This document shows positions 139 to 21,439 of a stretch of 21,683 bases of DNA, piece by piece. How positions within the stretch are numbered: the first letter of the stretch is position 1; each line of letters opens with the position of its first letter. The notes below the pieces were generated by a model. It was not told the origin of the DNA. It ran no database searches and worked only from the letters and a program-made list of their open reading frames with translations. The DNA is taken from the IMG/VR virus record IMGVR_UViG_3300033145_001019, positions 1-21,683 of that record. One strand, 5' to 3'. The DNA is from a virus. A program made the position numbers and the translations under genes.

Positions 139-165
139 CCCTTTGACAAATAATTTGCTAAAGGG
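139..165 (-). repeat. 27-bp dyad repeat, copy 1
   Basis: Imperfect palindrome with inner CAAA-N3-TTTG. On the minus strand it ends TTTGTCAAAGGG, and that AAAGGG is the ribosome-binding site of the gene starting at 132. Arms pair at 11 of 13 positions plus one G-U. See the repeat-family finding. Confidence 0.85.
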
Positions 166-183
166 GGGCAGTTGCCCACCCCC
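163..183 (-). terminator. GC-rich hairpin after the major capsid gene
   Basis: On the minus strand the RNA reads GGGGGTGGGCA, then AC, then TGCCCCCC, followed by TTT. This gives a stem of GGGCA/TGCCC extended by GGG/CCC across one bulged T, 15 bases after the capsid stop codon. The T-run is short and overlaps repeat copy 1, so it may be a partial terminator or an mRNA-stabilising hairpin that raises capsid expression over the next gene. Confidence 0.5.
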
Positions 184-197
184 TATAACATTAACCT

Positions 198-1496
198 CTA
201 AGGTACTAGATTGTTATCCAATCCAACACTATTCATAACTCCAAAAGTAAGAGGATGATGGAACTCATATCCCATCTCAGTAAGATACTCCTCTTTCTTC
301 CCATCGATTCTATTATGTCCAGTGTTCTGTTTCTCCATCTTGTCCGCAATAAACATAGTATCATCAATGTACCTCATTCTCATGTTCTTAGGCTCCATTA
401 TCACCAGCATATTCCTGGTGGTTGGCTGGAAACTGAACAGTGGATGTGTCTTCATGAAAATATTACCAAAAGGAGTAATCCACTTCCAAACCTTCAATCC
501 ATAAGCCACAGTTTCTGGCGTAAGATTAATCTGTCCACTCGCTTTAGCCAAACGATTAATCCCAAGAATAGCTCCACTTCCGGCAAAAACCAACTTCTCA
601 TTTGAGCCATACCTAAAGAGTTGCTCAAGGAATGTATCCATCCACAACTCACCACCAGCCAACCAAGTCTGGCCAGCATAAGCAGGGTTCAAGCTATAAT
701 CATCTACATTAGCTGGAGCAAACTGTCGAGTGAAACTCAAGATCCCCTGTGTAGTTCTCTCAGGTTTTCCATTAGTTCCAGTTCTAAGAGTCCTAATACC
801 AAAGAATGAACTCTGCTCTATCTCAATAGAGTGATACTCAAGAGTATCCCTCTTCATCCTCTGATAATCATCACCAGTTCTCAACTTAGTCTTCATTGCA
901 GTCCTGGTAACATCAAGTGTATTCCTAAAAATCTGAGCATAGTTACTATACTCAACTGGATCTTGATGAACTGAGGTGGTCATTTCAGCACCCTCAGAAT
1001 TTATATTACCAATTACCAAGATTGTATCACAATTACTTAGATCTGTAGTAACTCCATTATCATCAGCCTCAAGTAACTCAACTGTGAGAATACTATTAGC
1101 TCCATTGATAATTGAGTCAACAACTACCTTAGCATTTACATCAACTCGATAGTTAGAAGCATCCCTAAGCAATACCTGATGCCCGCCCCTAATCTGCTGA
1201 GCAAGTGCTGCAGCAACAGTTATATAAAGTGTATCCCCAGCAACTCCGCCAGCAACATAAAGAGCTGAAAGATCAGGAAGAGTAAACACTCCATTAACAG
1301 TCCCACCAACACTACCTACATTCTCAGTCCACCAGTGGTAATGTGGATCATCGGTAGATTCATTCCCCATCATACTAAGCATAGCAGTAAGTGCAGCAGT
1401 CCCGTTAGGGTACAAGTACAGTATCTGCTGTCTCCAATTTTCCGGCCTTTGGTTAGTTGCCCAATCGCCAGTTCCTCTCATTCCTAAAAAAGCCAT
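198..1496 (-). CDS. Major capsid protein, SU10/DUF5309-like (HK97 fold expected)
   Basis: A 432-residue protein expected to build the capsid shell. Around residues 179-200 it carries the stretch 'YSNYAQIFRNTLDVTRTA', followed by a region rich in charged residues ending 'ESSFFG'-like (IEIEQSSFFG). This resembles the N-x-x-QIF...VT-x-T...FG pattern I know from phage SU10-type capsid proteins (DUF5309). Length and position after a scaffold-like gene agree. GGAGG lies 8 bases before the ATG. The gene ends in TAG and is followed by a GC-rich hairpin. No signal peptide or membrane segment is seen. The capsid role is confident; the exact subfamily is an inference. Confidence 0.8.
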   Translation of the reverse strand: MAFLGMRGTGDWATNQRPENWRQQILYLYPNGTAALTAMLSMMGNESTDDPHYHWWTENVGSVGGTVNGVFTLPDLSALYVAGGVAGDTLYITVAAALAQQIRGGHQVLLRDASNYRVDVNAKVVVDSIINGANSILTVELLEADDNGVTTDLSNCDTILVIGNINSEGAEMTTSVHQDPVEYSNYAQIFRNTLDVTRTAMKTKLRTGDDYQRMKRDTLEYHSIEIEQSSFFGIRTLRTGTNGKPERTTQGILSFTRQFAPANVDDYSLNPAYAGQTWLAGGELWMDTFLEQLFRYGSNEKLVFAGSGAILGINRLAKASGQINLTPETVAYGLKVWKWITPFGNIFMKTHPLFSFQPTTRNMLVIMEPKNMRMRYIDDTMFIADKMEKQNTGHNRIDGKKEEYLTEMGYEFHHPLTFGVMNSVGLDNNLVP

Positions 1497-1524
1497 ATCT
1501 ATTTCCTCCTATTAATCATTCAGT

Positions 1525-1935
1525 TTATTGTGGTGCAGTAGTAGGTGACGCTGTGGTTGGAGCTGCAGTAGTCGGAGCAGCAGTTCCTTCATGAGTTACC
1601 AAGTCAGTTCCAGCATACCAAAACATACCATCTGAATAGAATAATATAGCATCACATTTTCCATTCAAAGTGTAATCCCCATTCCAACATTCACTATCAC
1701 TATTGTTGTCTTCTATAGTAACTGTATTAATAGCATCTGCATTTCTACATACTATAGAATAAAATTTCCCCATTGCTTTCCCGACTGGCGGAAGGGTCAA
1801 AGTCCAAGGCCCGCTAAGTGCATCAGCAATAGGCCTAACTGTATAATCCCTAACACTCATTTCATAATTAGCACGTGGAAAAGCACTCTTGTCAGCCACT
1901 GTAGTTTGTTCTCTGTGTTTGTTTTCAAGACTCAT
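1525..1935 (-). CDS. Small virion protein, possible capsid decoration, with Thr/Pro/Ala tail
   Basis: A 136-residue protein with GGAGG 9 bases before the ATG, 16 bases after the scaffold stop and 28 bases before the capsid start. Residues 1-118 form a compact-looking domain rich in beta-prone residues (for example FYSIVCRNADAINTVTIED, then FYSDGMFWYAGTDLV). Such Gly/Asn/Asp beta patterns occur in phage head-decoration or fibre-like domains. The last ~18 residues are a low-complexity tail of repeated APTTA units. The same type of repeat occurs near the N-terminus of the neighbouring scaffold protein. I do not recognise a family; a head-decoration role is inferred from its place between scaffold and capsid genes. 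Confidence 0.75.
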   Translation of the reverse strand: MSLENKHREQTTVADKSAFPRANYEMSVRDYTVRPIADALSGPWTLTLPPVGKAMGKFYSIVCRNADAINTVTIEDNNSDSECWNGDYTLNGKCDAILFYSDGMFWYAGTDLVTHEGTAAPTTAAPTTASPTTAPQ

Positions 1936-1951
1936 TACGAGTTACCTCCAT

Positions 1952-2788
1952 TTAGTATTTTAAATCATTCATCGTACCTATCTCCTCAGCAAGAGCAGAT
2001 AGCTTAGGTTTCTCAGCAGCCGGTTTTTTCCCTTTAGTAGTTTTGGGAAAAGCCGGATTCTTCACCTTCTCATCTTTTTTCAACTTTGTTTGCTTTTTCA
2101 ATCCAATAGTATCTCTAGTAGCTTTGCCAGATTCGTCATAAAGTTTTTCCAGATTCCACTCGGGATTTTCTCCAGCTAGTTTTTGAGCTTGCAGAGCTAC
2201 CAGTTTTCTATGCGGTAGAAGATCTTCATTACTACCAAAGAAATTATCAACTGAAGTCTTCAGAGCTAATTGTTGCTGAACCACATTCTGCATAACTGGT
2301 GGGATAGATCTAAGAACATGTTCAGTGCTTACATTCTTGCCTATCTCCACTCCCCTTTTCAAAACTGTATTAAGGATGTTATTCAAAACTTTTGGATTCT
2401 GCAAATCCTCTTCAGTTATCCCATCAAGGAAGTTAATCTCTTCAACCGGTGCTTCAGTAGTTGGAGCCTTAGTTGGGAAAGCTTTGGTAGCAGCCTGTGC
2501 TTTTTGGAGCAACTCCAATTCAGCAGCCTTAGCTCTAAGCTCTACTATTTCCTCACCCACTTCTTTAGGTGGATCAGTTGTAGGTGCCTGAGTTTCAGCA
2601 GCTGGAGCTTCGGTAGTAGGTGCTTCAGTCTCAGCACTTGGTGCTTCTGTTGTTGGAGCTTCAGTACCTGGCGACTCAGTACCAGGTGCGCTAGTCCCTG
2701 GTGCTTCAGTCCACTCTCCAGAAGCTGCTAGCTCACTAACTAACTCACTCTTTTGCATTTCTTTTATTTCTTCTTCACTTAAAGCCAT
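1952..2788 (-). CDS. Scaffold-like capsid assembly protein
   Basis: A 278-residue, mainly helical and charged protein. After a short helix (MALSEEEIKEMQKSELVSEL), residues ~26-70 are a mucin-like linker of repeated TEAPTT and APGT units. A helical segment (EEIVELRAKAAELELLQKAQ) follows, then a central domain with 'FFGSNEDLLPHRKLVALQAQ' and 'NPEWNLEKLYDESG', and a Lys-rich C-terminal part. These central motifs match my memory of phage scaffold proteins, and position directly upstream of decoration and capsid genes fits. Start choice: an ATG at 2794 is also in frame, but the AGGGGG provided by the repeat at 2798-2824 is only one base from it and ~7 bases from the ATG at 2788, so 2788 is preferred. 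No protease domain is visible. Confidence 0.72.
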   Translation of the reverse strand: MALSEEEIKEMQKSELVSELAASGEWTEAPGTSAPGTESPGTEAPTTEAPSAETEAPTTEAPAAETQAPTTDPPKEVGEEIVELRAKAAELELLQKAQAATKAFPTKAPTTEAPVEEINFLDGITEEDLQNPKVLNNILNTVLKRGVEIGKNVSTEHVLRSIPPVMQNVVQQQLALKTSVDNFFGSNEDLLPHRKLVALQAQKLAGENPEWNLEKLYDESGKATRDTIGLKKQTKLKKDEKVKNPAFPKTTKGKKPAAEKPKLSALAEEIGTMNDLKY

Positions 2789-2797
2789 TCTCATTCC

Positions 2798-2824
2798 CCC
2801 TATTACAAATAATTTGTTAAAGGA
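2798..2824 (-). repeat. 27-bp dyad repeat, copy 2 (variant TAGGGG)
   Basis: Dyad core CAAA-N3-TTTG retained; the minus-strand end reads TTTGTAATAGGGGG instead of AAAGGG. The G-run is the ribosome-binding site for the scaffold gene. The repeat fills the whole space between the stop of the unknown gene at 2825 and the scaffold start. Confidence 0.8.
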
Positions 2825-3277
2825 TTAACCAACAAAAAGAGTTCTAAAAAGCTCTTTCCAATAGCCATTTCCACCACCAACATTGCTAAGGGCTAGTATA
2901 TCCCCAGTCTGCATGTTGTAAGTTCCAACTGCTGGAACTTGATTTAATCTTACTACTCCCCCTACAACTGCTACTGCTTCATTAGTGATTGTCACATCAT
3001 CATCTTCAGCAATAAACACCTTAATCTGCCCAGCAGTTCCAAGGGTTATAGTACCTATGGTTACAGCGCCATCTGCACTTAAGTTAATTACCTCAATACT
3101 AGATTCTGAAAGATCAGTTCCTACAACCAATCCAATAGTCCCTATTGCAATAACTAAACTAGTTTGAGCAAATGGTATACCACTTAGAGCATTTATCTCA
3201 ATTCTATTATCTCTAATAGCTTCTGCGTGTACACTTACAGGATCAGTATCACTCGGTTTTGCTACGTCCAGAGTCAT
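2825..3277 (-). CDS. Unknown beta-rich structural protein
   Basis: A 150-residue protein with no family I recognise. After a polar N-terminus (residues 1-35), it is made of alternating hydrophobic/Thr/Gly strands such as 'TSLVIAIGTIGLVVGTD' and 'GAVTIGTITLGTAGQIKVFI', a composition common in phage head or fibre accessory proteins. There is no signal peptide. The ATG at 3277 lies inside the end of the upstream gene (29-bp overlap) and follows a long purine-rich GAGGAGGAAGAAG stretch, which is both the SD and the Glu/Asp-rich coding tail of that gene. It sits between portal and scaffold in the head module, so a virion role is likely. Confidence 0.72.
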   Translation of the reverse strand: MTLDVAKPSDTDPVSVHAEAIRDNRIEINALSGIPFAQTSLVIAIGTIGLVVGTDLSESSIEVINLSADGAVTIGTITLGTAGQIKVFIAEDDDVTITNEAVAVVGGVVRLNQVPAVGTYNMQTGDILALSNVGGGNGYWKELFRTLFVG

Positions 3278-3524
3278 CTTCTTCCTCCTCTATATCTTCA
3301 AGTCTTTGTATAAATCTATCAGGCATTTCTAAAACTCTTTCTAGAGCTTCAATTCTACCATCTATATTTCCCTTCCATATAAGAGTCTTAGCTTCTCTAT
3401 ACTCTCTCTCAGCCATTCTCTTAAGAACTAAGATTTCCCTTTTCATATCTTTAGCCAAGAGACTCTTTTTAAAGCCTATTATATCTCCTTTTGTCGATCT
3501 TATTATAACTTCTGAAAAATCCAT
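3249..3524 (-). CDS. Small charged coiled-coil protein
   Basis: A 91-residue, strongly charged, mostly helical protein. Residues ~18-75 have the heptad-like spacing of hydrophobics expected for a coiled coil (KREILVLKRMAEREYREAKT, then RIEALERVLEMPDRFIQRLE), ending in an acidic run (EDIEEEEDD). AGGAGG stands 5 bases before the ATG, and the gene begins 9 bases after the portal stop. Similar short helical proteins accompany portal genes in many phages, where their roles are mostly unknown. It overlaps the next gene by 29 bp, which suggests translational coupling. I do not assign a function. Confidence 0.72.
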   Translation of the reverse strand: MDFSEVIIRSTKGDIIGFKKSLLAKDMKREILVLKRMAEREYREAKTLIWKGNIDGRIEALERVLEMPDRFIQRLEDIEEEEDDSGRSKTE

Positions 3525-3532
3525 TTATCCTC

Positions 3533-5494
3533 CTAAACTGGTTGAATAGCACCTGATGCAACACCTTCTTGAATTTGTTCATCACCTACCATTTCAGGCT
3601 GTATTCTGTTAACATTTCTTCTAAAATCTTCTATATTCTTTGCTCCAAGTTGCTTAGCTATATACATAAACATTCTTGTTGTATCAAGCTCTTGTCTTAT
3701 CTCAGGGTCTGTAGCTGAGGTTTTCCATATATCTATCCAGTGCTCAGAAAAATTACCGCCTGGAACACTTCCATCTTTCGGTACTACATCATAATCTATT
3801 AGCAGATCATAAGGTGTAACCTTACCCCTGGTATTTCCACCAAAGCTTTTAAGTATCTCTTCTTGATAATCCCCAATAGCTTTAATATATACATCCTGAC
3901 TCATAAGCTGTTGACAGTTTGAAGCAAACATATGACCAATATCATGCATAGCTTGCAAACCAATTATCCTGGCAACTCTTTCCAACCTACCAATTCCACC
4001 TGCCCTGGTACCTTGAAACTCTGCCTTAGTCAACCTATCAGGCCCACCTTGTCTTAAATTACCTGACATACTTGCATCTGTTCCAGCTACCCTTTCCATC
4101 CACTGGGTCATATAGGCATTATCTCCAATGTTGGATCTAGTTATATCACTTACATTAAGCTGCTGAACTACCTTATCAACTCCTCTACCCCAAGCTGCTC
4201 TTCTTAACCTAATCAACCCGCCTGGTTTAGGATCTCTAAGATCATTCATATTAACCATATAAGGGTCAACTATTAACATATCATTTATAGCCTTCCTCAC
4301 GTTGGCTATATGTGAATTAAAGAGCCAGTCCATTGTCTCCTGCAAACCTTGCATCATCTCCAATTTACTAACTGGAGTTGGTGTGTATCCATCATACTCC
4401 GGAGCACACATAGCAACTGAGTACATATTATGGTCAAAGTTAGCTGGCTGAGCTTTAATTAATACTTCATCACTTGCTAGCTCAAAGTACCACTTTTCTG
4501 GTTGGCTACTACTTCCAAGTTTCCACTTTGGATCATTAGGGATCAAGTCAATATACATAGGGATTACATCAATTCTATTAGTCCCACCATACCAAGAACC
4601 AATCCTACTCCCCTGATTAGTTTTCTTCTCCCTCTCAGAGTAGTCACTAGCAAATACAGAATACTTACCTTTAACCTTTTCCAAATAGGCTGTATTAAAC
4701 ATAGTATCTTGATTAAGAGCTTGCTCCCTCTTAAGATTCATCAAATTATCCCTAACCACCCAGCCTACATACTCTCCACTTTGAATATCAGTTCCAGCAT
4801 TTGGGTCTGGTAAGAACATATAAGGATCTATATTATCAATCTTATTCCCCTCAAACAGAATCATTTCATCAGTTCTAGTCTTCATCTCTCCTTCATCAAA
4901 CAAGCTACCGTCTGCTTGAAGGATAGTTCCCATTTTCCTTCTGGTTTTATACCCAGTCTTAATACCCCAACCTGGAGATACAACTCCCATACCATAAGTA
5001 AAGGCATCTCTAAGCATAGTGTGTATGTTAAGTTCTGTCTTAAACCTCTCACAATGGAGTTGGATAACCCTCTCCATCAGGATTGCTCCTATAGTATCCT
5101 CAGCACTCCACCCTTCATACTTAAAAATCGGATCCTGAAAGAACACCCCTACCATGTAGGATAACATAGTTTCCATCATTACATAAGAATATGGGAAGAG
5201 AATGGAGACTGGTTTGCGATCATCTTTAGTCTTCACATCCTTCTCTTTATCACTAGTCCTGATATAAGCTGTCATGATCTTGTCAATTTTATTCCAGTTC
5301 TTATACCGACTGGACATAACATTGCTAGATTCTCTAGCCCTTTCCATAATCCTATCCTTAATCCTTCTATGATCCTCAGTCCAAGGTCTTAAATCTAGAT
5401 CATTAGGATACTCATAATCCGGAGCATCAATCCTCTCAAAATCAATCTCAGACATATTTCTATATTCTGTATTTCCTTGAACTACGTTAACCAT
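3533..5494 (-). CDS. Portal protein
   Basis: A 653-residue protein expected to form the dodecameric portal through which DNA is packaged. Visible features typical of long portal proteins are an N-terminal charged region (about 1-60), a conserved-looking 'YVMMETMLSYMVGVFFQDPI' near residues 105-124, the 'IDNIDPYMFLPDPNA' segment near 220, and a C-terminal helical 'EFQGTRAGGIGRLERVARII' region near 500-520 resembling the portal stem/wing area. Length, place between tailspike and scaffold genes, and the presence of a large terminase in the window all support it. AGGAAGGG stands 6 bases before the ATG. A possible 17-codon ORF overlaps the start. The function rests on motif memory and gene order, not alignment. 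Confidence 0.82.
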   Translation of the reverse strand: MVNVVQGNTEYRNMSEIDFERIDAPDYEYPNDLDLRPWTEDHRRIKDRIMERARESSNVMSSRYKNWNKIDKIMTAYIRTSDKEKDVKTKDDRKPVSILFPYSYVMMETMLSYMVGVFFQDPIFKYEGWSAEDTIGAILMERVIQLHCERFKTELNIHTMLRDAFTYGMGVVSPGWGIKTGYKTRRKMGTILQADGSLFDEGEMKTRTDEMILFEGNKIDNIDPYMFLPDPNAGTDIQSGEYVGWVVRDNLMNLKREQALNQDTMFNTAYLEKVKGKYSVFASDYSEREKKTNQGSRIGSWYGGTNRIDVIPMYIDLIPNDPKWKLGSSSQPEKWYFELASDEVLIKAQPANFDHNMYSVAMCAPEYDGYTPTPVSKLEMMQGLQETMDWLFNSHIANVRKAINDMLIVDPYMVNMNDLRDPKPGGLIRLRRAAWGRGVDKVVQQLNVSDITRSNIGDNAYMTQWMERVAGTDASMSGNLRQGGPDRLTKAEFQGTRAGGIGRLERVARIIGLQAMHDIGHMFASNCQQLMSQDVYIKAIGDYQEEILKSFGGNTRGKVTPYDLLIDYDVVPKDGSVPGGNFSEHWIDIWKTSATDPEIRQELDTTRMFMYIAKQLGAKNIEDFRRNVNRIQPEMVGDEQIQEGVASGAIQPV

Positions 5495-5535
5495 AGTTGA
5501 CCCTTCCTGTTAGTCCATAAATTGTTTTCAGCCAT
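5482..5535 (-). CDS. Possible 17-residue ORF overlapping the portal start
   Basis: ATG at 5535 preceded by TAGGAG (3-4 bases), reading MAENNLWTNRKGQLWLT and stopping at TAG (5484-5482), 12 bases past the portal ATG in another frame. The SD and overlap are what a leader peptide coupling translation to the portal would look like. It is short enough to arise by chance, so it is listed with low confidence. Confidence 0.25.
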   Translation of the reverse strand: MAENNLWTNRKGQLWLT

Positions 5536-5564
5536 TTCTCCTACCAAGTCTGCAATGTTGCCCC

Positions 5565-8282
5565 TTAATCAAAAACCTTCCTAACCTCTATTGATAACTG
5601 TAAAGAGCCTAAATCAATTGCCCCTGCGCTGGTATTATCTAAACGCAACTCAATAGTATTAGCCACTCTATATCTTGATGATAAGATTAATCCGTCCAAT
5701 GTCCTATCAGCCCCTACTATAATCTGCCAATATGAACTATTGTCTAACCCTGCTATTGTTACATCGTGTGTTTCGTTAGCGGCAGCGTTTATACTCGCAG
5801 GATCCCAGGTATCTGTAACTCTCAAATAAGGGATAATAGAACACGAAAAATCTGAAAGGTCTACCACTCCTGCATAAGTGCTTCCAGTTGTTTTTATCCT
5901 GTTTTCTATAAATCTATACGTGACTAAAGTATCTCCTGCGTATATCCCAGGTAAGGCTCCTGAACTGATTGAGTTATTTGCTACTATACCATAACTGGCT
6001 TGTGGATAGTTGCCTCCTGCCCCTCTCTCAAAGTGCATCCCGCTTTCACCAGCAGCATCAATATCTCCAAACGAGTTATCTGAAATAATTATATTAAGAT
6101 CTTCACCAAAAGAAATAAAGCCATAATCGTAAACGTCCCAAACAGTATTCCCGCTAATCACAGTATTTTGTGAGTTTCTGGAATACAGCCCTGCCTTAAA
6201 ACCCCGGACAGAATTTCCTTTAATTATATTTCCCTCTGCTAAACCATTACCTCCCTGATTTCCATGATATATTATTCCAACAGTAGTGTTTGCCATAGTG
6301 ATTACTTCGCTTGCTCCGTGATCTACAAACACATTGTTATTAGCAACAATACATCTAGAAGGGGCTGTGTAAGTAGGGGCAGAAACAAAAGGGCCAACCA
6401 TAATCCCTGTTCTGCAATCTTTTACTTTATTTCCTGTAAAAGAAATATCTTCACCTCCATGAGCGTCTAACCCTTCCCAAAACTGGACATTCCACACACT
6501 ATTATTAGTTACTGCAACACGCTTACACACAGGTTTGACGGCTTCAGTACCCACCCCTTTCGTGATAACAATTCCATAAGAATTATCACCAGGACTACCA
6601 CCAAGCAGAATGTCATAGACTTTATTTTTATCTACATTTCCATCATTAGACGACCTAAGCTGTATGCCAGCGTAGAAAATGTCATAGACTTTATTTTTTT
6701 CAATCTCAAATTTCTCTACAAACTCTGTCTCTATTCCTGCATATCCCCAATCATGAATCTTACAGTTTCTAATTTTAAGCCTTGAAATGTAATTTGAAGA
6801 GTCTACGCCATAAGCACGTATCCCAACTTGAGTGGCCACTTGAGTAACATTCTGTGGCCCGTCTAATTCTATACCATCTATCTCTACATCAGAAGCCGTT
6901 ACCAACAAACCCCTGTCTGCTGTGGTATCAGATGCCCAAGAAAAAACCGCTCCTTTAGCGTTAATTGTACAAGCCTTAGAAAGTGTCCACTGACCAGCGA
7001 TAGTGTAGGAACCCGAAGGAATAACGATATATTGATTTGCAGTTATAGCCGTAATCATTTCTTCTAAATATGTTGCATTGTTTGCTCCAGACTCCAAAGA
7101 CGAAAACCCGAAAAATTGTGGATATACTTCTGCCCGTAACGACAAAGAAATATCACCCGTACCATTCCCCCAATCAAATATCTGCTGTCTTGGCTGTGCA
7201 TCAATCTCCCCATTAATTGTTAGATCAGCATCTGCAGAATCAGATAGAATATTTCCTGGAATATATTTGAAAGTAGTAGTAGCAGGAAATACATAATCAT
7301 AGTTAATAGTTTCATCTTTTCTAATTTCTAATCTAATAATTGAATCATCTATATGAAATCCTGCATCTGCTAATGTACTAAACCAAGTAGATTTAATAAT
7401 ACTACCATCAGCAAAATCCACCCTACCAAGACTATCATCTCCAAATGTTGGATAATCTCTACCAATTATATCATTCGATTGAATTGTTAGAGTTCTACCA
7501 GTATTAGGAATTATGTCATACCCTCTTCCTAAATCAAATTTTACAGTGTTTGGGAAAGTATAACTATAATCAAGAATCTCACTTTTTCTAACTTCAAGTG
7601 TTACTTCAGAATTATCTATATGTTTGCCAGTTACTCTTAATCTAGAAAACCAAGTTGATTTAACAACTACTCCATCATTAAAATCTAATCTACCAATCCC
7701 ATTAGCTATTATATAATCTCCAGCCATTATTTGATCTACATTAGAGATTACTATTCCAGAATCTATTGTAAGCTCATTACCTGGCTCACCCCACTTAAGA
7801 GCTACATCATCTCCGATTGGTTGGGTAGTACTAGCTTGCTCGTTTTGAGAAAACAGAAGAGTTACTTCATCATCTACGGTTTCAAGTATGGCTTCATCCA
7901 CATCATCAAACCAAGCAGTCTTAACCTCCGACCCACTAGCAAAATCATAATCAAAAGTTCCGAAGAAAATTTGCTTGTTAGGAGCATCTATACTCACAGT
8001 ATTAATTGTAACTGCCCCAGTAGATGTTATCCCACCATCTGCAAAGAATTTAAGCCTAACGTTTCCAGGGATAGTTCCAGTAAAATCTTCCCTCTCAACA
8101 ATGTAAAGTGTTCTTTCAGCTGCCCCAATCGCAGTTACAGCAGCTGCTAGACCAGTATAGGCTTTAACATCAACCCATATAGCATCTATATCAGTTAAAA
8201 TTATATCGTGAAAGTACATTTGAGAATAAGAATTGAAACATAGTAATAATATAATAAATATTGATAAAATAAACTTCTTCAT
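5565..8282 (-). CDS. Tailspike-like right-handed beta-helix protein with signal peptide
   Basis: A 905-residue protein. Residues 1-20 (MKKFILSIFIILLLCFNSYS) form a clear Sec signal peptide. Residues ~105-355 hold a threefold repeat of about 88 residues, marked by K-T/S-x-WF at 121, 208 and 297, each preceded by a DF-x-x-G segment. Residues ~390-830 are a parallel beta-helix of the pectate-lyase type, with many short turns such as 'GNKVKDCRTGIMVG' and 'NNSISSGALPGIYAGD', opening with 'YIVIPSGSYTIAGQWTLS'. The last ~70 residues form a separate beta domain. Known beta-helix tailspikes bind or cleave host surface glycans. A GGAG lies 5 bases before the ATG. The part encoded by 5565 to ~7250 is CpG-rich and the repeat part is CpG-poor, suggesting a swapped C-terminal domain. 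Catalytic residues cannot be picked out by eye. Confidence 0.82.
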   Translation of the reverse strand: MKKFILSIFIILLLCFNSYSQMYFHDIILTDIDAIWVDVKAYTGLAAAVTAIGAAERTLYIVEREDFTGTIPGNVRLKFFADGGITSTGAVTINTVSIDAPNKQIFFGTFDYDFASGSEVKTAWFDDVDEAILETVDDEVTLLFSQNEQASTTQPIGDDVALKWGEPGNELTIDSGIVISNVDQIMAGDYIIANGIGRLDFNDGVVVKSTWFSRLRVTGKHIDNSEVTLEVRKSEILDYSYTFPNTVKFDLGRGYDIIPNTGRTLTIQSNDIIGRDYPTFGDDSLGRVDFADGSIIKSTWFSTLADAGFHIDDSIIRLEIRKDETINYDYVFPATTTFKYIPGNILSDSADADLTINGEIDAQPRQQIFDWGNGTGDISLSLRAEVYPQFFGFSSLESGANNATYLEEMITAITANQYIVIPSGSYTIAGQWTLSKACTINAKGAVFSWASDTTADRGLLVTASDVEIDGIELDGPQNVTQVATQVGIRAYGVDSSNYISRLKIRNCKIHDWGYAGIETEFVEKFEIEKNKVYDIFYAGIQLRSSNDGNVDKNKVYDILLGGSPGDNSYGIVITKGVGTEAVKPVCKRVAVTNNSVWNVQFWEGLDAHGGEDISFTGNKVKDCRTGIMVGPFVSAPTYTAPSRCIVANNNVFVDHGASEVITMANTTVGIIYHGNQGGNGLAEGNIIKGNSVRGFKAGLYSRNSQNTVISGNTVWDVYDYGFISFGEDLNIIISDNSFGDIDAAGESGMHFERGAGGNYPQASYGIVANNSISSGALPGIYAGDTLVTYRFIENRIKTTGSTYAGVVDLSDFSCSIIPYLRVTDTWDPASINAAANETHDVTIAGLDNSSYWQIIVGADRTLDGLILSSRYRVANTIELRLDNTSAGAIDLGSLQLSIEVRKVFD

Positions 8283-8293
8283 GTTTTCTCCTT

Positions 8294-9502: not shown

Positions 9503-9512
9503 TTCTTAGATA

Positions 9513-9539
9513 CCCTTTAACAAATTATTTGCCATAGGA
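9513..9539 (-). repeat. 27-bp dyad repeat, copy 3
   Basis: Core CAAA-N3-TTTG, minus-strand end TTTGTTAAAGGG followed by TATC. It overlaps the last five codons of the small membrane-protein gene (TAA at 9527-9525) and supplies the likely SD of the fibre gene starting at 9502. Confidence 0.85.
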
Positions 9540-13294: not shown

Positions 13295-13295
13295 A

Positions 13296-15308: not shown

Positions 15309-15317
15309 AGTTCCTCC

Positions 15318-15710
15318 TTAGTTATTATACTCAGCTGTTACTTGCAAAACTGCAGCACTTGCTCCAGTCTCACTAGTAAATTGAAAAGTTCTAATCATAC
15401 TTCTATTTACAATCCTTAAGCTTTGCTGAGCATACAAGATATGGCCTTGGCCATTACCAACTCTACTTGGATTACTCCCACCAACAGTCCACCTTATAGG
15501 ATTAGTCTCACAAGTAAAAAGCACAGCAGAGACTACTTTGTTATCAGCTCGATTTATAATCCAGCCTGGGAGGGATTGAACTGCATCAGTTGAGACAAGT
15601 ACTCTAGTGGGAGCCACATTCACACCCTGGACTGATAAAACTTCATCCAAAGCAAAACTTGAGCTTGTTACTAGAATAAACGCTAGAATTAAAAATAATC
15701 TCTTTATCAT
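15318..15710 (-). CDS. Small secreted protein of unknown function
   Basis: A 130-residue protein. A longer reading starting at a TTG (15728) exists, but AAAGGG of repeat copy 4 stands exactly 7 bases before the ATG at 15710, which also begins a clean signal peptide (MIKRLFLILAFILVTSSSFA). The mature part of ~110 residues is beta-rich ('RVLVSTDAVQSLPGWIINRA', 'GHILYAQQSLRIVNRSMIRT') and resembles small virion or appendage proteins in overall character, but I recognise no family. It begins a run of four consecutive signal-peptide genes and is separated from the next by 9 bases, so it is likely co-translated with the fibre-like gene. Confidence 0.72.
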   Translation of the reverse strand: MIKRLFLILAFILVTSSSFALDEVLSVQGVNVAPTRVLVSTDAVQSLPGWIINRADNKVVSAVLFTCETNPIRWTVGGSNPSRVGNGQGHILYAQQSLRIVNRSMIRTFQFTSETGASAAVLQVTAEYNN

Positions 15711-15717
15711 TTTATCA

Positions 15718-15744
15718 CCCTTTAGCAAAACATTTGTTATAGCT
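15718..15744 (-). repeat. 27-bp dyad repeat, copy 4
   Basis: The core is preserved on the minus strand as CAAATGTTTTG, followed by CTAAAGGG. The outer left arm is the most degenerate of the seven (AGCTATAA), so the arms pair poorly while the AAAGGG side is intact. It overlaps the last codons of the deacetylase gene and supplies the SD of the gene at 15710. Confidence 0.78.
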
Positions 15745-16375
15745 GACTGAAGGTCAATACTTCAATAAGATCCTTACACTCAGTTAAAGCTTTAAAAACT
15801 CTTCCCCAATCCTCAAAATTAAAATCACACTTACCATGCCCATATAAGCAAAATAACCAATTCTCGCTTACAGCTTTACTAACCCAACTTTTCACTGCTT
15901 CATCTGGAGTTCGGTCACTTACATCTCTTGGTAAATTTATTCCACTTATCATTAATAAATCAGTCTCTTCAACACTCTTTGGTCTACCAAACATTCTTCT
16001 AGAAACAACCCTACCATACTTAAACCTAGCTGCTTTAGCAACATCTAATACAGCTAAATCAATAGATCCATATGGGTAAACTATAGTATTGCATTCTTTG
16101 CCCAGAATCTGTTCTAAAATATTTTTACTAGAAACGAGTTCTTTAGATATAGTATCACGATTCCTCTTTGTTAATTCAATATGTGAGGTACCATGGCAAC
16201 AGACCTCATGGCCTTCATCTGAGTAGACTTTCATAATGTTTATTCTTTCTTTATTTAGCCCTATCAAATCAGCAGCCAAGCAAACCTTAAAATCTACTTT
16301 ATCAGCTATTTCACAAAGTTTACCCCAGTAATGGATATTTCTGCTATCATCAATCGTTAAGATACATTTTGCCAT
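15737..16375 (-). CDS. NodB-type polysaccharide deacetylase (carbohydrate esterase 4)
   Basis: A 212-residue enzyme expected to remove acetyl groups from an N-acetylated sugar polymer using a divalent metal. The NodB motifs are visible: motif 1 'LTIDDS' with D9/D10, motif 2 'HGTSH' with metal-binding H61 and H65, motif 3 'YPYG' around P101, and a late 'LYGHG' with H180 as the likely catalytic-pocket His. Length suits a single-domain cytosolic enzyme; no signal peptide is seen, unlike bacterial peptidoglycan deacetylases, which favours a role on a precursor or on phage-borne sugar. The start overlaps the upstream glycosyltransferase by 19 bases, and AGGA lies 3 bases before the ATG. It is the last gene of the glycan cassette. 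Confidence 0.85.
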   Translation of the reverse strand: MAKCILTIDDSRNIHYWGKLCEIADKVDFKVCLAADLIGLNKERINIMKVYSDEGHEVCCHGTSHIELTKRNRDTISKELVSSKNILEQILGKECNTIVYPYGSIDLAVLDVAKAARFKYGRVVSRRMFGRPKSVEETDLLMISGINLPRDVSDRTPDEAVKSWVSKAVSENWLFCLYGHGKCDFNFEDWGRVFKALTECKDLIEVLTFSQL

Positions 16376-17289
16376 TGTTCCTGAATCTCCTCAAAAGTAA
16401 ACTTAGCATTATCCTTTATCCATCTTTTTTCGCCTTCCCCAACTAATCTAATATTGTGAAGTGACCTTTCACTAAAGTCCTCAAACCTTTTAAGTCTTCT
16501 CTGAATCCTTTTAACCCTTTGTTGTAACAAAGTTTCTCCACCCAGAATATATCCAGCTACTAAAATCCCCATCCATCTACCACCTTCATGAGTTCTTGCA
16601 TACTCAGAAGTTCTGCAAAGAAAAGGGTCTCTCTTAAATGGGCCTATGTGAATTCCAGCAAAGTTCTCAACCAGGTAATTTACTTTACCAAAGAGTAAAC
16701 TTTTAATTCCCATATAAGCGTCTCCACCACCCCAAGAATACTTCTCCTTGGCAAGTGTTCCATACCCTTGAATCTCTTGGTAAAGACTTTTCTTCATCCC
16801 AAATGGAGCACCTCTAAATGGTATTTTTCTACAATTCCAACCTACTTCTCTAAACTTAACTGCCATAAAGGTTCTGATATCCCTTGAGTGATAAGCGTCA
16901 ATCTCGGTGTCCATATGGTAGATTAATGGCCCGTAAACTATCCCAACTTCATCCCCTTTGGCAAATGTTTTGTTAAAGGAGACAAATGCCCCTCTACTTA
17001 ACATCATATGGGAGTCAAGGATTATTATGTAATCTCCATTAGCAACTTCAACTCCTTTATCACGAGCGGAGAAAATACAACTAACACTTTCTTTTAAAAG
17101 CTTTATCTTACCTTCTACTATATATTGTACATCAATCAAGTCCCCAATGTTTAAACCGTCTTTGTCTGAGTTATCAACTATAACTATCTCAACCTTTCCA
17201 TCAAAGCCCTTAGCTTCTTCAAGCAAACTCCTCACTGTGAAGAGGCAGCCAATAGGATCATTTCTAGTTGAGATAACTACACTAATCAT
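16357..17289 (-). CDS. GT-A family glycosyltransferase, paralogue A
   Basis: A 310-residue family-2-like transferase that would move a sugar from a nucleotide donor. 'MISVVISTRND' opens the Rossmann-like fold; nucleotide-site residues are D39 in 'VIVDNSD' and the metal motif is 'LDSH' at 91-94 (Asp-Ser-His in place of DxD). The acceptor/catalytic region shows 'SWGGGD' ending at D190 and 'GIHIGPF' with H214. TTG at 17301 is in frame, but the ATG at 17289 with GGAG 5 bases upstream is preferred; it overlaps the previous stop as TAATG. It shares LDSHM, SWGGGD and GIHIGPF with the next gene, so the two are tandem paralogues. A 27-bp dyad repeat copy lies inside the frame, coding residues ~104-112. 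Confidence 0.88.
   Translation of the reverse strand: MISVVISTRNDPIGCLFTVRSLLEEAKGFDGKVEIVIVDNSDKDGLNIGDLIDVQYIVEGKIKLLKESVSCIFSARDKGVEVANGDYIIILDSHMMLSRGAFVSFNKTFAKGDEVGIVYGPLIYHMDTEIDAYHSRDIRTFMAVKFREVGWNCRKIPFRGAPFGMKKSLYQEIQGYGTLAKEKYSWGGGDAYMGIKSLLFGKVNYLVENFAGIHIGPFKRDPFLCRTSEYARTHEGGRWMGILVAGYILGGETLLQQRVKRIQRRLKRFEDFSERSLHNIRLVGEGEKRWIKDNAKFTFEEIQEQWQNVS
16954..16980 (-). repeat. 27-bp dyad repeat, copy 5, inside a coding region
   Basis: CAAA-N3-TTTG core followed on the minus strand by CCAAAGGGG. It is wholly within the glycosyltransferase frame, where it is read as SFNKTFAKG. The matching part of the paralogous gene lacks it. Being inside a gene, this copy cannot serve only as an SD for the next start. 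Confidence 0.8.
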
Positions 17290-18239
17290 TACTTCTCCCA
17301 AGGTTTGTTCTTAAGATATTCTTCAAAACTCATAACTTGACTCTGCAGCAGCCTCTTCCTATCAACTCCACCAAGAGTCTTTGCCAACCCAAGATACTTG
17401 ACAACTGAAAACCAAGGCCAATTCTTCTCAATAGCTTGGGTATTTCTCTTAACAGCTTCAACCCCACCCAAGACATATAGAGCCACTAGGTAACCTGTTA
17501 AGGTTGGATACTCCCCACTCTTTGCATAAACCCTATACTTATTTCCATCCTTTCCATCTACATTCGGGAATGGCCCTATATGGATTCCTGGACTGGTTGG
17601 TATAGCCCAATTCTCAAACCCAAGCAACCAAGGCTTAGTTCCAATTAAGATATCTCCACCGCCCCAACTTACCTTATTAGCCGACAGTGCTCCATACCCA
17701 CCAAGTGTTCGAAGGAACCAATTTCTACGGCATATCCAAGGCATACCTTTCCAAGTAATCTTTCTTTCAACATCATATAGGGTATTCCAATCTCCCAGTT
17801 CACAACTGGTTACATCTCTATCATGCTTAGCCCTACTCTCATGTTGATGTGCCCAACCAATAGGAGCATGGCCAAAGCCAAGTTTTGGGTCATCCCTGTG
17901 GGAGTTCATGAAGTCAACCATATCCTTGAACATGTTATAGCCAACTAACATATGAGAATCTAAACAAGCGATGTATTGACCCTTAGCACGCTCGGCCCCG
18001 AGTTCCCTAGCTGTGAAAAGACAAGGGAAATCTTGGCGGATTAGTTGAATTTTACCCTCTTCAATATATTTACTTGGTAAGGCACTTTTAACCATCTCAT
18101 AAAACTTTTCATCAGAGTTATCTACAACAACAACTTCTCCACCACCGCTTACAGCTTTAAGAGCTTCAATACAGCTTCTAACTGTAACTGCTAACATAGA
18201 GACATCATTACGATTTGAGATAATGACTGATAGTTTCAT
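17289..18239 (-). CDS. GT-A family glycosyltransferase, paralogue B
   Basis: A 316-residue enzyme of the same type as its downstream neighbour: 'MKLSVIISNRND' at the N-terminus, D40 in 'VVVDNSD', 'CLDSHM' with D94-S95-H96 as the likely metal site, 'SWGGGD' ending at D196 and 'GIHIGPF' with H220. It differs in a longer middle section (residues ~115-165, 'GWAHQHESRAKHDRDVTSCE') where acceptor choice may lie, and in a Trp-rich C-terminus. The pair probably adds two different sugars, or sugars at two successive steps. The start overlaps the methyltransferase stop by ATGA, so translation is coupled. No membrane anchor is seen, so action in the cytosol is expected. Confidence 0.88.
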   Translation of the reverse strand: MKLSVIISNRNDVSMLAVTVRSCIEALKAVSGGGEVVVVDNSDEKFYEMVKSALPSKYIEEGKIQLIRQDFPCLFTARELGAERAKGQYIACLDSHMLVGYNMFKDMVDFMNSHRDDPKLGFGHAPIGWAHQHESRAKHDRDVTSCELGDWNTLYDVERKITWKGMPWICRRNWFLRTLGGYGALSANKVSWGGGDILIGTKPWLLGFENWAIPTSPGIHIGPFPNVDGKDGNKYRVYAKSGEYPTLTGYLVALYVLGGVEAVKRNTQAIEKNWPWFSVVKYLGLAKTLGGVDRKRLLQSQVMSFEEYLKNKPWEK

Positions 18240-18889
18240 ATCTTAGTAAACCTCACTATAACTCTATCTTGTCTAGCCCTTGGTACATCTGGGTAAGCGA
18301 TAATACTATGGAAATACTTGAAGCCACAACTCATCATAACCCCAGTCCAATACTCTATATTATCATACTGGTCTAGCCCGCATTTGATTATAAAGTTTTT
18401 GGTATTCTTAGCTAGTTTTTGGATGAAACCCACTTGGTGCCGAGCGAGCTGAGATCTCATTTTGAATCCATGTTTTTGAACTCCAATGTATCTAAGAACC
18501 GAAATGGCAAAGACATAGTCCCAATCTTGGCCTAATTCCAACTCGTCAACAAATCCATCAAGTATTGTATACTCCCCCCTAAAAAATTCTTTTACAAAAT
18601 AGGCTTGCTTCAGCCACTCTGGTTTGCTCTCAACACCAAATGCGAAGGCTCCTATATCCGCAGCTTTCTTACAAAATAATCCAGCGTTGCAGCCAATGTC
18701 CAAGATAAATTTATCTTCAATTGATTCTCTAATCAGCTCTTGGTGAATGTTTAGAAATAGTTGATCGGTAGTTACCAACTTATCAGTAGTCCAAACTCCA
18801 CCTAAGTTGATCCTCTGATGCCAGCCCTTGTTAGTTCCACTCGTCTTTTCAAGTTCCTTAATCTTCTTTTTGATTCCTTCTTTATTCAT
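18236..18889 (-). CDS. Class I SAM-dependent methyltransferase
   Basis: A 217-residue enzyme with the SAM-binding loop 'FILDIGCNAG' at residues 61-70 (D64-x-G-x-x-x-G) and an acidic residue at the end of the second strand (E87 in 'AFGVESKP'), as expected for a class I fold. Residue ~110-135 'FVDELELGQDWDYVFAISVL' fits motif II/III. The N-terminal ~50 residues ('GWHQRINLGGVWTTDK') probably bind substrate. Placement between a sulfotransferase and glycosyltransferases suggests that it methylates a sugar, but a lipid or peptide target cannot be excluded. The start overlaps the sulfotransferase stop by 8 bases with GGTGGGG in front; the stop overlaps the next gene by ATGA. Confidence 0.85.
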   Translation of the reverse strand: MNKEGIKKKIKELEKTSGTNKGWHQRINLGGVWTTDKLVTTDQLFLNIHQELIRESIEDKFILDIGCNAGLFCKKAADIGAFAFGVESKPEWLKQAYFVKEFFRGEYTILDGFVDELELGQDWDYVFAISVLRYIGVQKHGFKMRSQLARHQVGFIQKLAKNTKNFIIKCGLDQYDNIEYWTGVMMSCGFKYFHSIIAYPDVPRARQDRVIVRFTKI

Positions 18890-19637
18890 ATCCCCACCTT
18901 TTTAATTTCTTTTTAAACTTCTTAGATAATCTATCTTCCATATTCGGTAACTCGGTTTTCCAAGTATCTAAATGAGTTGGCTTATACTCATGACCTTCGA
19001 TACTTAACTTACCAATTCCTAAAAACCTGCTAATCTGCCTGATAGTCTTCTTTGGATCAGCTACTGCATCTTCATACCTAACCACATGAATTCTATCCTT
19101 AAGACTTTTACAATTAAGATTCCTCTCAAGGTATTCACAACCCTCTAACCAAAGATGCTCAGCACTGGGAATTGACTTGGCTATAAAATTGGCTCTAGAT
19201 TTACCACCTTTAAACAGCCGAATTTGGGAAGCTATAACTGCTCTACCATCCCTCAAGCAGAATATAAACTTCATATTTGGAAATCTATTAGCTATCTCAA
19301 TGGTGAAATAGAGATAATGTCTTGGGAGTTTATCACCGAAGTATTTAAGATTTGGGAGTTTTTTAGTTACAAAGTTTGTTACACTTTTGCCGTTTGTAAT
19401 CTTGCTGACTGTTTCTATATCCAGGTTATGTTTTTTAAACACTGCACTAGATGCTCTATTTGGGTTCATCTTATGTTTCATCAAGAGTGGGCCTATCGGA
19501 TGCCGCCAACAGCGAAAGATTCTAAACTCCCTAGTAATAAACAAACTACCATCTATATTGAGCAAGTCAGTGAGTGCAGTTGTTCCACTTCTAGGACACC
19601 CTCCGATAGCTATAAATGGTAGTTCTTCCAGTTTCAT
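18882..19637 (-). CDS. PAPS-dependent sulfotransferase
   Basis: A 251-residue enzyme of the carbohydrate/protein sulfotransferase type, which would transfer sulfate from PAPS. The 5'-phosphosulfate loop is 'GGCPRSGTT' at residues 12-20, and the 3'-phosphate motif 'FCLRDGRAVIASQ' has R129 and S137. 'YFGDKLPRHY' (99-108) has the basic residue often near the active site. Length is normal for a stand-alone phage or bacterial enzyme. The start overlaps the upstream stop as TAATG, with AAGGA 6 bases upstream. Phage genomes carrying sulfotransferases are not common, and here it starts a five-gene glycan cassette, so a sulfated sugar is the simplest product. A TPR or membrane segment is absent. Confidence 0.88.
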   Translation of the reverse strand: MKLEELPFIAIGGCPRSGTTALTDLLNIDGSLFITREFRIFRCWRHPIGPLLMKHKMNPNRASSAVFKKHNLDIETVSKITNGKSVTNFVTKKLPNLKYFGDKLPRHYLYFTIEIANRFPNMKFIFCLRDGRAVIASQIRLFKGGKSRANFIAKSIPSAEHLWLEGCEYLERNLNCKSLKDRIHVVRYEDAVADPKKTIRQISRFLGIGKLSIEGHEYKPTHLDTWKTELPNMEDRLSKKFKKKLKRWGYE

Positions 19638-19810
19638 TATTTATCCTTCAATGGTTTCTCTGTAAAAAATCTAAGAAAAAAGTTACCAAGAGTTATAATT
19701 GCTGTAACTGCTTCAACTGGAATAACGACTCCACAAGTAGTTAAGATAGTTACTACCGCTCCAGCTAATACGTTAAAATTAATAGTCTTACTTTTAAAAA
19801 TACTAAGCAT
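19637..19810 (-). CDS. 57-residue holin-like membrane protein
   Basis: Gene from ATG at 19810 to TAA at 19639-19637, filling the gap between lysin and sulfotransferase. After a short basic start (MLSIFKSKTIN) residues ~13-44 form one or two closely spaced hydrophobic segments ('NVLAGAVVTILTTCGVVIPV', then 'EAVTAIITLGNFFLRFF'), ending in a short charged tail (TEKPLKDK). Such very small proteins ending in 'LRFFTxKPL' recur in phages next to lysins, where they are usually called putative holins. AAGGTAAAGAAG precedes the ATG. Directly after the lysin (5-base gap), it is the best holin candidate in the window. Confidence 0.75.
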   Translation of the reverse strand: MLSIFKSKTINFNVLAGAVVTILTTCGVVIPVEAVTAIITLGNFFLRFFTEKPLKDK

Positions 19811-19815
19811 CTTCT

Positions 19816-20112
19816 TTACCTTCCTTTCGGATCATACTCCACGTGAAATATATCCCTGTTATCAGTGTATTCAACTACATCAAAATCCTTATCCAAACAC
19901 TCAACTACATCCTTCTTGGGAATACCTTGTCTACTAAAATCCAAAGCGTTCTCTTCATAGTGGCAGCTATGCCCCAGGTGATTACCTTCCCCAATAGAAG
20001 TTATGTAGAAATCCTTATCGTTGTTGTTATATAGAGTAATTAGTTTCCCTTTAGCCCTTCTCATATTGGGGGATAGGTTACCAAGTACACCTTGTTTAAT
20101 CCATACAGTCAT
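19816..20112 (-). CDS. Small M15-like peptidase, probable lysin
   Basis: A 98-residue protein, numbered from the ATG at 20112 (another in-frame start at 20136 overlaps the small terminase; AAGGA with 8-base spacing favours 20112). It has S49-C-H51-x(4)-A56-L-D58, matching the S-x-H-x(4)-A-x-D zinc motif of M15 D,D-carboxypeptidase-like peptidases, and a final 'FHVEYD' with H90 as the third ligand. These enzymes cut peptide cross-links in peptidoglycan, and phages use them for lysis. At about 100 residues it is near the lower limit of the family and has no cell-wall-binding domain or signal peptide, so it would need the holin next door to reach the wall. A processing role in virion maturation is the alternative. 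Confidence 0.78.
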   Translation of the reverse strand: MTVWIKQGVLGNLSPNMRRAKGKLITLYNNNDKDFYITSIGEGNHLGHSCHYEENALDFSRQGIPKKDVVECLDKDFDVVEYTDNRDIFHVEYDPKGR

Positions 20113-20116
20113 CTTC

Positions 20117-20629
20117 TTATTCCTTCTCCATTTCAATTATAGTTCCATTATTTCTTGCTAATGCTTTTCCTCTAGCCTTAAGTGCTTCTATCTCGTCAAG
20201 ATCGAAATGCCCCACCAGATGCTTTCTCGGTGCCTCATGTCCGCCTAATTCTTTAACTATCGTATCAGCAGTAGATTTTCTGAGACTCCAGCTAATTCGC
20301 TCGTCTTCAGCCCTTAGAATTTCCCGATAGGTTTCAATCGCCACTGGCTCTAATGACTTAATCTCCTTTGCCACATCTAACGTATCAGCATCCCTAGCCC
20401 CTCTCATTGTCTCTAACTTTGCTTTGCCTAGATCCGAGTTGATAGTGTTAGAAACCGTTTGAGACGTGCAGCCCAGGTAACTAGCAATTTGCGTACCTTT
20501 AAGCCCCAAGACCGACAACCGCAAGATCTCATGAGAAAGATCCCAAAGGTCTTTAATCTGGTGAGTTTTCCTTTCTCCATCTCTTTTCCTTCTCTTATCT
20601 TTACCTTTTTTAATATCTAACCCATACAT
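20117..20629 (-). CDS. terS: Terminase small subunit
   Basis: A 170-residue DNA-binding protein expected to recognise the packaging site and recruit the large terminase. An upstream ATG at 20704 is in frame but lacks an SD; GGAGGT with 7-8 bases of spacing supports the ATG at 20629. The N-terminus is very basic (KKGKDKRRKRDGERK), followed by a helix-turn-helix at ~36-64 ('LSVLGLKGTQIASYLGCTSQ', then 'TVSNTIN'). The C-terminal part is helical ('EIKSLEPVAIETYREILRAE', then 'KSTADTIVKELGG') as in oligomerising small terminases. A transcription regulator with an HTH is the alternative, but first position in the late operon and length favour terS. CpG is frequent (about 7 per 180 bp), unlike most backbone genes sampled. 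Confidence 0.75.
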   Translation of the reverse strand: MYGLDIKKGKDKRRKRDGERKTHQIKDLWDLSHEILRLSVLGLKGTQIASYLGCTSQTVSNTINSDLGKAKLETMRGARDADTLDVAKEIKSLEPVAIETYREILRAEDERISWSLRKSTADTIVKELGGHEAPRKHLVGHFDLDEIEALKARGKALARNNGTIIEMEKE

Positions 20630-20722
20630 TAAAATACCTCCATATAATCCACCATACCACATTAAATGGAAGATGTCAACACCATTAATTTGGGAAACCG
20701 ACATTCTTCATTAACCAACCTA

Positions 20723-20749
20723 CCCTTTAGCAAATTATTTGTTATAGGG
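20723..20749 (-). repeat. 27-bp dyad repeat, copy 6
   Basis: One of the most regular copies (11 of 13 arm positions pair), ending GCTAAAGGG on the minus strand with flanking GATACCC on the outer side. It lies 93 bases before the chosen terS start, so it is not the SD for that ATG. It marks the left border of the gene-free control region and the head of the leftward operon. Confidence 0.88.
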
Positions 20750-20756
20750 TATCATC

Positions 20757-20798
20757 CAACGAAGTTGATTGTTATAGGTTATTTATCAGCGAAGCTGA
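20757..20798. repeat. Pair of mini-hairpins with GAA loops
   Basis: CAAC-GAA-GTTG at 20757-20767 and TCAGC-GAA-GCTGA at 20786-20798, with centres 30 bases apart. The second contains GCGAAGC, a known unusually stable single-stranded DNA mini-hairpin. Confidence 0.75.
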
Positions 20799-20894
20799 AT
20801 GAAATTAACAAATTTTGGGATTTTTAAAAACTATACACCAAAGGTTGAAGAACTAACCCGCCCCTTATCTACGTCATTTACCCCCTACTCGGTT

Positions 20895-20923
20895 TGATGC
20901 ACCTTACAATGGTTGATGCACCT
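20895..20923 (+). repeat. Direct repeat TGATGCACCT, two copies
   Basis: TGATGCACCT at 20895-20904 and 20914-20923, 19 bases apart, each preceded by GGT or GGTT. The short spacing resembles iterons, but only two copies are present. Confidence 0.6.
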
Positions 20924-21015
20924 AGTGGAGTGAGGTTCACCTTCCACCGGTGGACTAGTGGTTTAATTACTAGGTATCAACTAGAGTTGGCATGATAGTT
21001 GCTAGCTGGTGGTGT

Positions 21016-21058
21016 GTATCACATCGATGATACAGTTATGTATCACATCATTTGATAC
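21016..21058. repeat. Tandem GTATCA...TGATAC dyads
   Basis: Two inverted repeats in direct array: GTATCA-N6-TGATAC at 21016-21033 and GTATCA-N7-TGATAC at 21040-21058. Both have CATC after the left arm, and starts are 24 bases apart. Further GTATCA half-sites are at 20749 and 20974, and TGATAC at 21409. This is a plausible binding site for a dimeric regulator or initiator. Confidence 0.7.
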
Positions 21059-21113
21059 ACTATTATCATCATTCAACTAGGTTTGTTGGCATCATTGTTG
21101 CAACGGCATAAAA

Positions 21114-21190
21114 CGTCACATTGACATGGTTTAGGATGTGTAATAATCCCAATGTGTTACCCTAGTTTATTGCCGTTAATCGTCACATTG
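21114..21190 (+). repeat. Direct repeat CGTCACATTG, two copies
   Basis: CGTCACATTG at 21114-21123 and 21181-21190, 67 bases apart. The flanks hold opposed ACGGCA and TGCCGT, which could pair across the interval. Confidence 0.6.
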
Positions 21191-21412
21191 TGGCCTAGAT
21201 TGTCATAATTCATACCGTTTTTAATTCCATTGAATTTGGTAACTAGTTGATATTGTTCACGTTTAATTAATTATGCTAGTTGGCATGCTAGATGCAATAC
21301 ATTATGGTAACATTGACAAACGTGCAACATGGCTAGAATAGTGACACTAGGTGATATTTGTCACGCCTGCTAGTTTGGGTTAACCAGGTTTATTGATAAT
21401 TTATAATTGATA

Positions 21413-21439
21413 CCCTTTGACAAATGTTTTGTAATAGGG
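21413..21439 (-). repeat. 27-bp dyad repeat, copy 7
   Basis: Core CAAA-N3-TTTG; the minus-strand end is TTTGTCAAAGGG followed by TATC, as in copy 3. It lies inside the control region, with no start codon close on either strand, so here it cannot act as an SD. Confidence 0.85.

Follow-up and report, generated by a model that had tools for sequence, protein, structure and literature searches.

The window analyzed here is a virus record of 21.7 kb from IMG/VR (IMGVR_UViG_3300033145_001019, all 21,683 nucleotides), and it carries the late arm of a tailed phage punctuated by seven copies of a short palindromic repeat. The genes of this arm encode capsid, scaffold-like, portal, and tail or fiber proteins, the large terminase (TerL), and a helix-turn-helix (HTH)/small-terminase-like protein (TerS). 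Among named phages, the nearest relative is Desulfofustis phage LS06-2018-MD01 (portal, 43%; terminase, 48%); Vibrio phage VS-ABTNL-3, Microcystis phage Mel-JY34, Caulobacter phage Kuura, and Pseudomonas phage PaP2 are further off. The window is a fragment of a virulent, Desulfofustis-phage-like tailed phage. The Desulfofustis phage itself is predicted to be strictly lytic (PMC10370329). A search for tyrosine integrase (PF00589) returned none in 28 near-complete relatives and succeeded in 14 of 14 controls, serine integrases and repressor homologues lying outside its scope. A relative was present in 1 of 84,980 bacterial genomes.

The original prediction, made from the letters of this DNA, had reported seven 27-bp copies that all retain CAAA-N3-TTTG, and the sequence confirms them at the same positions (Table 1). 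On the minus (coding) strand, six copies end in AAAGGG as described, and the copy at 2798 ends in AATAGGG(G); the consensus of the seven is YCCTWTAACAAATnATTTGYYAAAGGG, with the constant AAAGGG end facing the following gene. The copies are odd-centered, imperfect palindromes of 23 to 27 bp in which 8 to 11 of 13 pairs are complementary. Stop codons are packed against them: the copies at 9513 and 15718 each contain a TAA, and another TAA, at 2825-2827, directly adjoins the copy at 2798. Against their own matrix the copies score 26 to 38 bits, compared with 15 bits for the best random match in Markov-simulated sequence, a contrast that is partly circular because the matrix was trained on the same seven copies. 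An unsupervised search of the window for palindrome families returned precisely the seven known copies, and simulated sequence gave one to three members.

Table 1. Palindromic sites of the window and homologues of c18, the candidate binding protein encoded in the early arm of relatives
Feature	Position	Strand	Setting	Counterpart in relatives
Palindromic site 1	139..165	.	Between major capsid protein gene (198-1496 -) and next gene (ATG ~132)	Junction also bears a site in G001 and most relatives
Palindromic site 2	2798..2824	.	Between 150-aa gene (stop 2825) and scaffold-like gene (start 2794)	Junction is that of G001 site 34388
Palindromic site 3	9513..9539	.	Upstream of 402-aa gene (start 9502); holds the TAA of the upstream 58-aa open reading frame	Orthologous site in kin G044 at 6318
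Palindromic site 4	15718..15744	.	Between polysaccharide deacetylase-like gene (stop 15737, within site) and 136-aa gene	
Palindromic site 5	16954..16980	.	Within family 2 glycosyltransferase frame (16357-17301 -)	
Palindromic site 6	20723..20749	.	Upstream of HTH/small-terminase-like gene (20117-20704 -)	Orthologous sites in kin G042 (9939), G043 (3198), and G044 (3094)
Palindromic site 7	21413..21439	.	Noncoding stretch upstream of the late arm, on the side of the early region beyond the record; adjoins no gene start	
c18 homologue, closest kin G043	5717-6253			
c18 homologue, Desulfofustis phage	850-1191			

Alignment-based scans of IMG/VR yielded 160 related loci; 29 near-complete relatives and three closer kin of the window (G042 to G044) were read. 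An equivalent family of 23-bp odd palindromes was detected in 34 of 35 near-complete or kin contigs, the window included, with 8 to 22 copies per near-complete genome distributed over both arms. In the simulated-sequence control for the 34 positive contigs, there was at most one chance match per genome. Related phages thus hold further copies, as the original prediction had anticipated. Its description of the copies as markers of gene blocks in the late operon proved too narrow, since the relatives carry sites genome-wide, including in the early arm. The same method found no site family in G037, where the largest "family" is a tail-gene repeat, nor in four outgroups (Vibrio phage ABTNL-3, Microcystis phage Mel-JY34, Caulobacter phage Kuura, and Pseudomonas phage PaP2).

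Site sequences are specific to the lineage. For example, the G001 family (CTATGKTAATTnAATTAMCATAG) has eight copies and that of the Desulfofustis phage (CTATGTCCCAAnTTGGGACATAG) has nine; motifs across lineages include CTATGGTTAAAnTTTAACCATAG, GTTCGTTTAATnATTAAACGAAC, and that of the kin, CTTAAACAAATnATTTGTTTAAG, for which matches in an exact scan of IMG/VR were confined to the three kin contigs. Copies within one genome agree with each other in both arms, so that the sites of a genome change in concert, as is expected of sites recognized by a trans-acting factor. The half-site derived from 351 distinct sites is S-W-N-Y-R-T-T-N-A-A-W, and the central base is free. Identity between aligned relatives was 74.7% at sites versus 73.5% in the flanks, a comparison that is uninformative on conservation because the flanks are mostly coding.

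The element is kept as duplex DNA, and pairing in the mRNA is avoided rather than selected. On the coding strand, A.C mismatches outnumber G.U pairs (251 versus 153, with an A.C excess in 22 genomes versus 6), the opposite of what is expected if a transcript hairpin mattered. Within genomes, the actual pairs of halves are less complementary than those produced by shuffling 3′ halves between sites (z of -7 to -8, robust to the score cutoff), and RNA folding is weaker for the coding strand than for its opposite (p = 2e-5). The proposal of a DNA-protein site rather than an RNA hairpin, made originally on the window copies, is now backed by several hundred sites. Avoidance of pairing is not absolute: some perfect palindromes occur in kin G042 to G044. 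In the scanned window, no Rfam family coincided with a repeat, none of nine terminator-like sites fell on one, and the repeats have no T-run. As a separate observation, palindrome halves are anti-correlated within genomes across all near-complete relatives, and the near-palindromes are apparently kept imperfect; in G001, seven of eight copies combine one G-type half with one T-type half.

Sites are tightly packed into gene junctions. Measured from the site center, the upstream stop codon lies at a median distance of 18 bp and the next start codon at 28 bp, and Shine-Dalgarno sequences peak 10 to 30 bp past the center. The 5′ halves favor GA, which gives a TGA stop, and the 3′ halves are A-rich beside the ribosome-binding site. 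From these data we infer that the apparent orientation of the sites stems from their packing between stop codon and Shine-Dalgarno sequence. All window copies had been described as oriented with late transcription; the site is instead a pseudo-palindrome whose half-types occur in either orientation in relatives, and the window copies look oriented because the AAAGGG end overlaps the Shine-Dalgarno sequence of the next gene and the other end the upstream stop codon. Although the overlap exists, it follows from where the sites lie, and the suggestion that the repeat is a translation module supplying a Shine-Dalgarno sequence is not supported. Certain junctions recur despite differing site sequence, for instance those after the major capsid protein gene (21 of 29) and before the connector gene (18 of 31), and the window has sites in common with its kin ahead of TerS and ahead of the 402-aa gene. 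By junction type, sites were found at 33 of 124 convergent, 32 of 122 divergent, and 289 of 1459 tandem junctions; convergent junctions are therefore as rich in sites as divergent ones and not poorer than tandem ones. No enrichment of TTGACA/TATAAT was detected at sites at any offset outside the palindrome.

Spacing between sites is more even than random choices of gene junctions would give (p < 0.05 in 24 of 30 genomes; combined z of -10.5). Gaps shorter than a quarter of the mean made up 5% against 24% expected, and gaps longer than three times the mean were absent against 5% expected. In 29 of 30 genomes this regularity was stronger in kilobases than in gene counts, which points to a function of the DNA itself. 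We know of no promoter system that needs such regular spacing.

Taking these features together, we consider it fairly probable that the repeats are duplex-DNA binding sites of a phage-encoded, twofold-symmetric protein acting genome-wide, with the conserved early protein c18 as the likeliest binder. A symmetric dimer, or a dimer of dimers, would occupy the evenly spaced sites, and each lineage would have its own protein-site pair, accounting for the concerted change of sites within a genome. Along the whole genome, the sites occur every 2 to 6 kb in short intergenic gaps, where a constraint on 23 to 27 bp costs least. Since the sites are regular in distance, blind to direction, and not tied to promoters, the protein appears to act on the whole genome: once bound, it may organize or bridge the phage DNA and/or form roadblocks, as opposed to switching single promoters.

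The case for c18 as the binder comes from its distribution and from the position of its gene. By profile, c18 was detected in each of the 32 contigs with sites that extend into the early arm, apart from G001, whose contig stops short of the region, and it was not detected in the four outgroups without sites. Its gene lies in the densest patch of sites, ranks first among 23 conserved genes in local site density (2.28x), and in 18 of 32 contigs has a site within 1 kb on each side, compared with 13% of all genes. In the AlphaFold2 model, an N-terminal domain of an extended stretch and two helices (pLDDT above 90) is followed by long helices; judged by sequence pattern and this predicted topology, the fold is probably ribbon-helix-helix-like.

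Several observations weigh against this assignment and the wider reading. G037 has a weak c18 homologue yet no site family. No Pfam or PHROG family matched c18, and Foldseek gave no significant match, the ribbon-helix-helix proteins DinJ, CdbA, and VapB falling below threshold. Covariation between site and protein, assessed by Mantel and column-wise scans, favors no gene, c18 included, and is dominated by phylogeny. The window record stops short of the early region of its own phage, and the null model for evenness was built on simple open reading frame calls. Instead of c18, the binder could be the product of another early gene of ribbon-helix-helix-like type, c16, or the HTH/TerS protein, c5. 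One further candidate, the product annotated as a "transcriptional regulator" in the Desulfofustis phage (2296-2838, beside a site), was set aside, as it has no Pfam match and does not align with c18.

A conserved early protein consists of a ParB N-terminal domain fused to an N6/N4 DNA methyltransferase (L009:5201-6535, L007:10342-11634); its annotation in the Desulfofustis phage is that of a partition protein. A ParB/parS explanation of the repeats was rejected because the ParB domain is fused to the methyltransferase and the gene also occurs in the Vibrio and Microcystis relatives, which lack sites.

The main rival explanation, which we regard as possible but unlikely, is that the sites are stoperator-like roadblocks at which a phage repressor stops elongation, as in the cluster A mycobacteriophages. 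Phages of this cluster (L5, Bxb1) carry 20 to 30 short sites over the genome, located in short intergenic gaps and with a lineage-specific motif, and the present sites share this placement, a similar copy number, lineage-distinct motifs, and a high density around a putative regulator gene. However, stoperators are asymmetric, oriented elements bound by a monomer (PMC6550527, PMC9283540). Those of cluster A are 13 bp long, follow the direction of transcription, and belong to temperate phages with a monomeric repressor, whereas the sites described here are 23 to 27 bp, symmetric, evenly spaced, not bound to one direction, also present at convergent junctions, and carried by phages in which no tyrosine integrase was found, which have a relative in almost no bacterial genome, and whose nearest named member is predicted to be lytic. 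Of the three explanations offered in the original prediction, operators or stoperators of a phage repressor came nearest, but the symmetry, even spacing, and convergent placement of the sites, and the lack of a detected tyrosine integrase or of prophage relatives, speak against it.

Less probable still is a role in controlling many phage promoters, with every site acting as an operator or activator site for the gene block downstream. Such an arrangement would fit the recurrence of sites before the connector gene, the 299-aa gene, TerL, and the DNA polymerase gene. It is opposed by the absence of -35/-10 enrichment, by the use of convergent junctions, and by a spacing that tracks kilobases rather than genes. 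In addition, with the start codon about 28 bp and the upstream stop codon about 18 bp from the center, there is no room for a promoter outside coding sequence.

We consider it very improbable that the repeats are dispersed recognition sites of the small terminase (c5) for packaging. A site does lie upstream of the TerS gene, which has the second highest local site density (1.73x), and TerS gave the highest raw partial correlation with site distance, though the value was close to those of the major capsid protein and other head genes. However, its recognition helix is nearly invariant across lineages with different sites, and it differs between the window and G042 to G044 although their sites are almost identical. 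A small terminase also normally needs a single pac or cos locus.

There is scarcely any likelihood left for promoters of a phage single-subunit RNA polymerase (T3-like, CTAAAGGG) or for hairpin promoters of an N4-type virion RNA polymerase. The AAAGGG end in the window phage and, if the site is drawn as a hairpin, the 3-nt loop geometry had recommended them. A T7/T3-type promoter is an asymmetric, codirectional element, and this reading was rejected because the sites are palindromic and occur at convergent junctions; moreover, AAAGGG is not common to the relatives and perfect pairing is avoided. The search for a polymerase gene that the original prediction had called for gave no match to PF00940 in 28 near-complete relatives, where the control genomes were equally silent and absence is thus not proven, and the largest virion protein matched no RNA polymerase domain. 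Intercistronic RNA hairpins for processing, stability, termination, or translation would suit the location between stop codon and Shine-Dalgarno sequence but are most improbable, and were rejected, given the pairing statistics, the weak coding-strand fold, and the lack of T-runs, terminators, and Rfam matches described above.

Among known systems, the closest functional analogue of the proposed genome-wide protein is MatP/matS (PMC12756933), which organizes the Ter macrodomain of Escherichia coli through more than 20 dispersed symmetric sites and does not control promoters. The present sites are likewise dispersed, symmetric, and without a promoter link. MatP is a ribbon-helix-helix dimer with a coiled-coil tail, and c18 is predicted to have an extended-helix-helix domain followed by long helices. 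In contrast, matS sites lie on a bacterial chromosome and much farther apart, no relation was found between the sequences of MatP and c18, and a role for c18 as an organizer is our proposal. We do not claim membership of these sites in the stoperator or the MatP/matS class. The length and symmetry of the sites would also fit those of the Arc and Mnt operators of P22, near-palindromes of about 21 bp, each occupied by a pair of ribbon-helix-helix dimers. Arc, however, has one operator at one promoter, and the present phages have 8 to 22 sites away from promoters. Noc/NBS, SlmA/SBS, and ParB/parS similarly rely on palindromic, dimer-bound sites scattered over a genome, with other sequences and protein families.

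More tentatively, and with doubt prevailing, this family of virulent tailed phages might possess a genome-organizing system of its own, a viral counterpart of MatP/matS in which a fast-diversifying ribbon-helix-helix protein is bound to evenly spaced, lineage-specific palindromes throughout the genome. No description of such a system was found in the open-access PubMed Central text searched, and regularly spaced putative protein sites across a virulent phage genome are likewise undescribed in the open literature searched. The roughly thirty natural pairs of protein and site, with their diverged specificities, would be useful for studying concerted change of DNA-binding specificity, and they raise the question of whether small phages organize or silence their own DNA inside the cell.

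Three further features of these genomes were noted. Between TerS and TerL, the late arm of the window holds a cassette (15737-19637) encoding a polysaccharide deacetylase, two family 2 glycosyltransferases, a methyltransferase-like open reading frame, and a sulfotransferase; these glycan genes are unusual in a virulent phage and possibly serve to modify virion or host glycans. Thr/Pro-rich "APTTEAPTTE" tandem repeats at 1536-1590 and 2440-2690 fall in the C terminus of a 136-aa protein (1525-1935 -) and in the scaffold-like protein (1952-2794 -). In G011, G008, and G024, the DNA polymerase frame is about 1148 codons long, compared with the usual length of about 830, and the polymerase query matches in two pieces, which suggests an in-frame insertion such as an intein.

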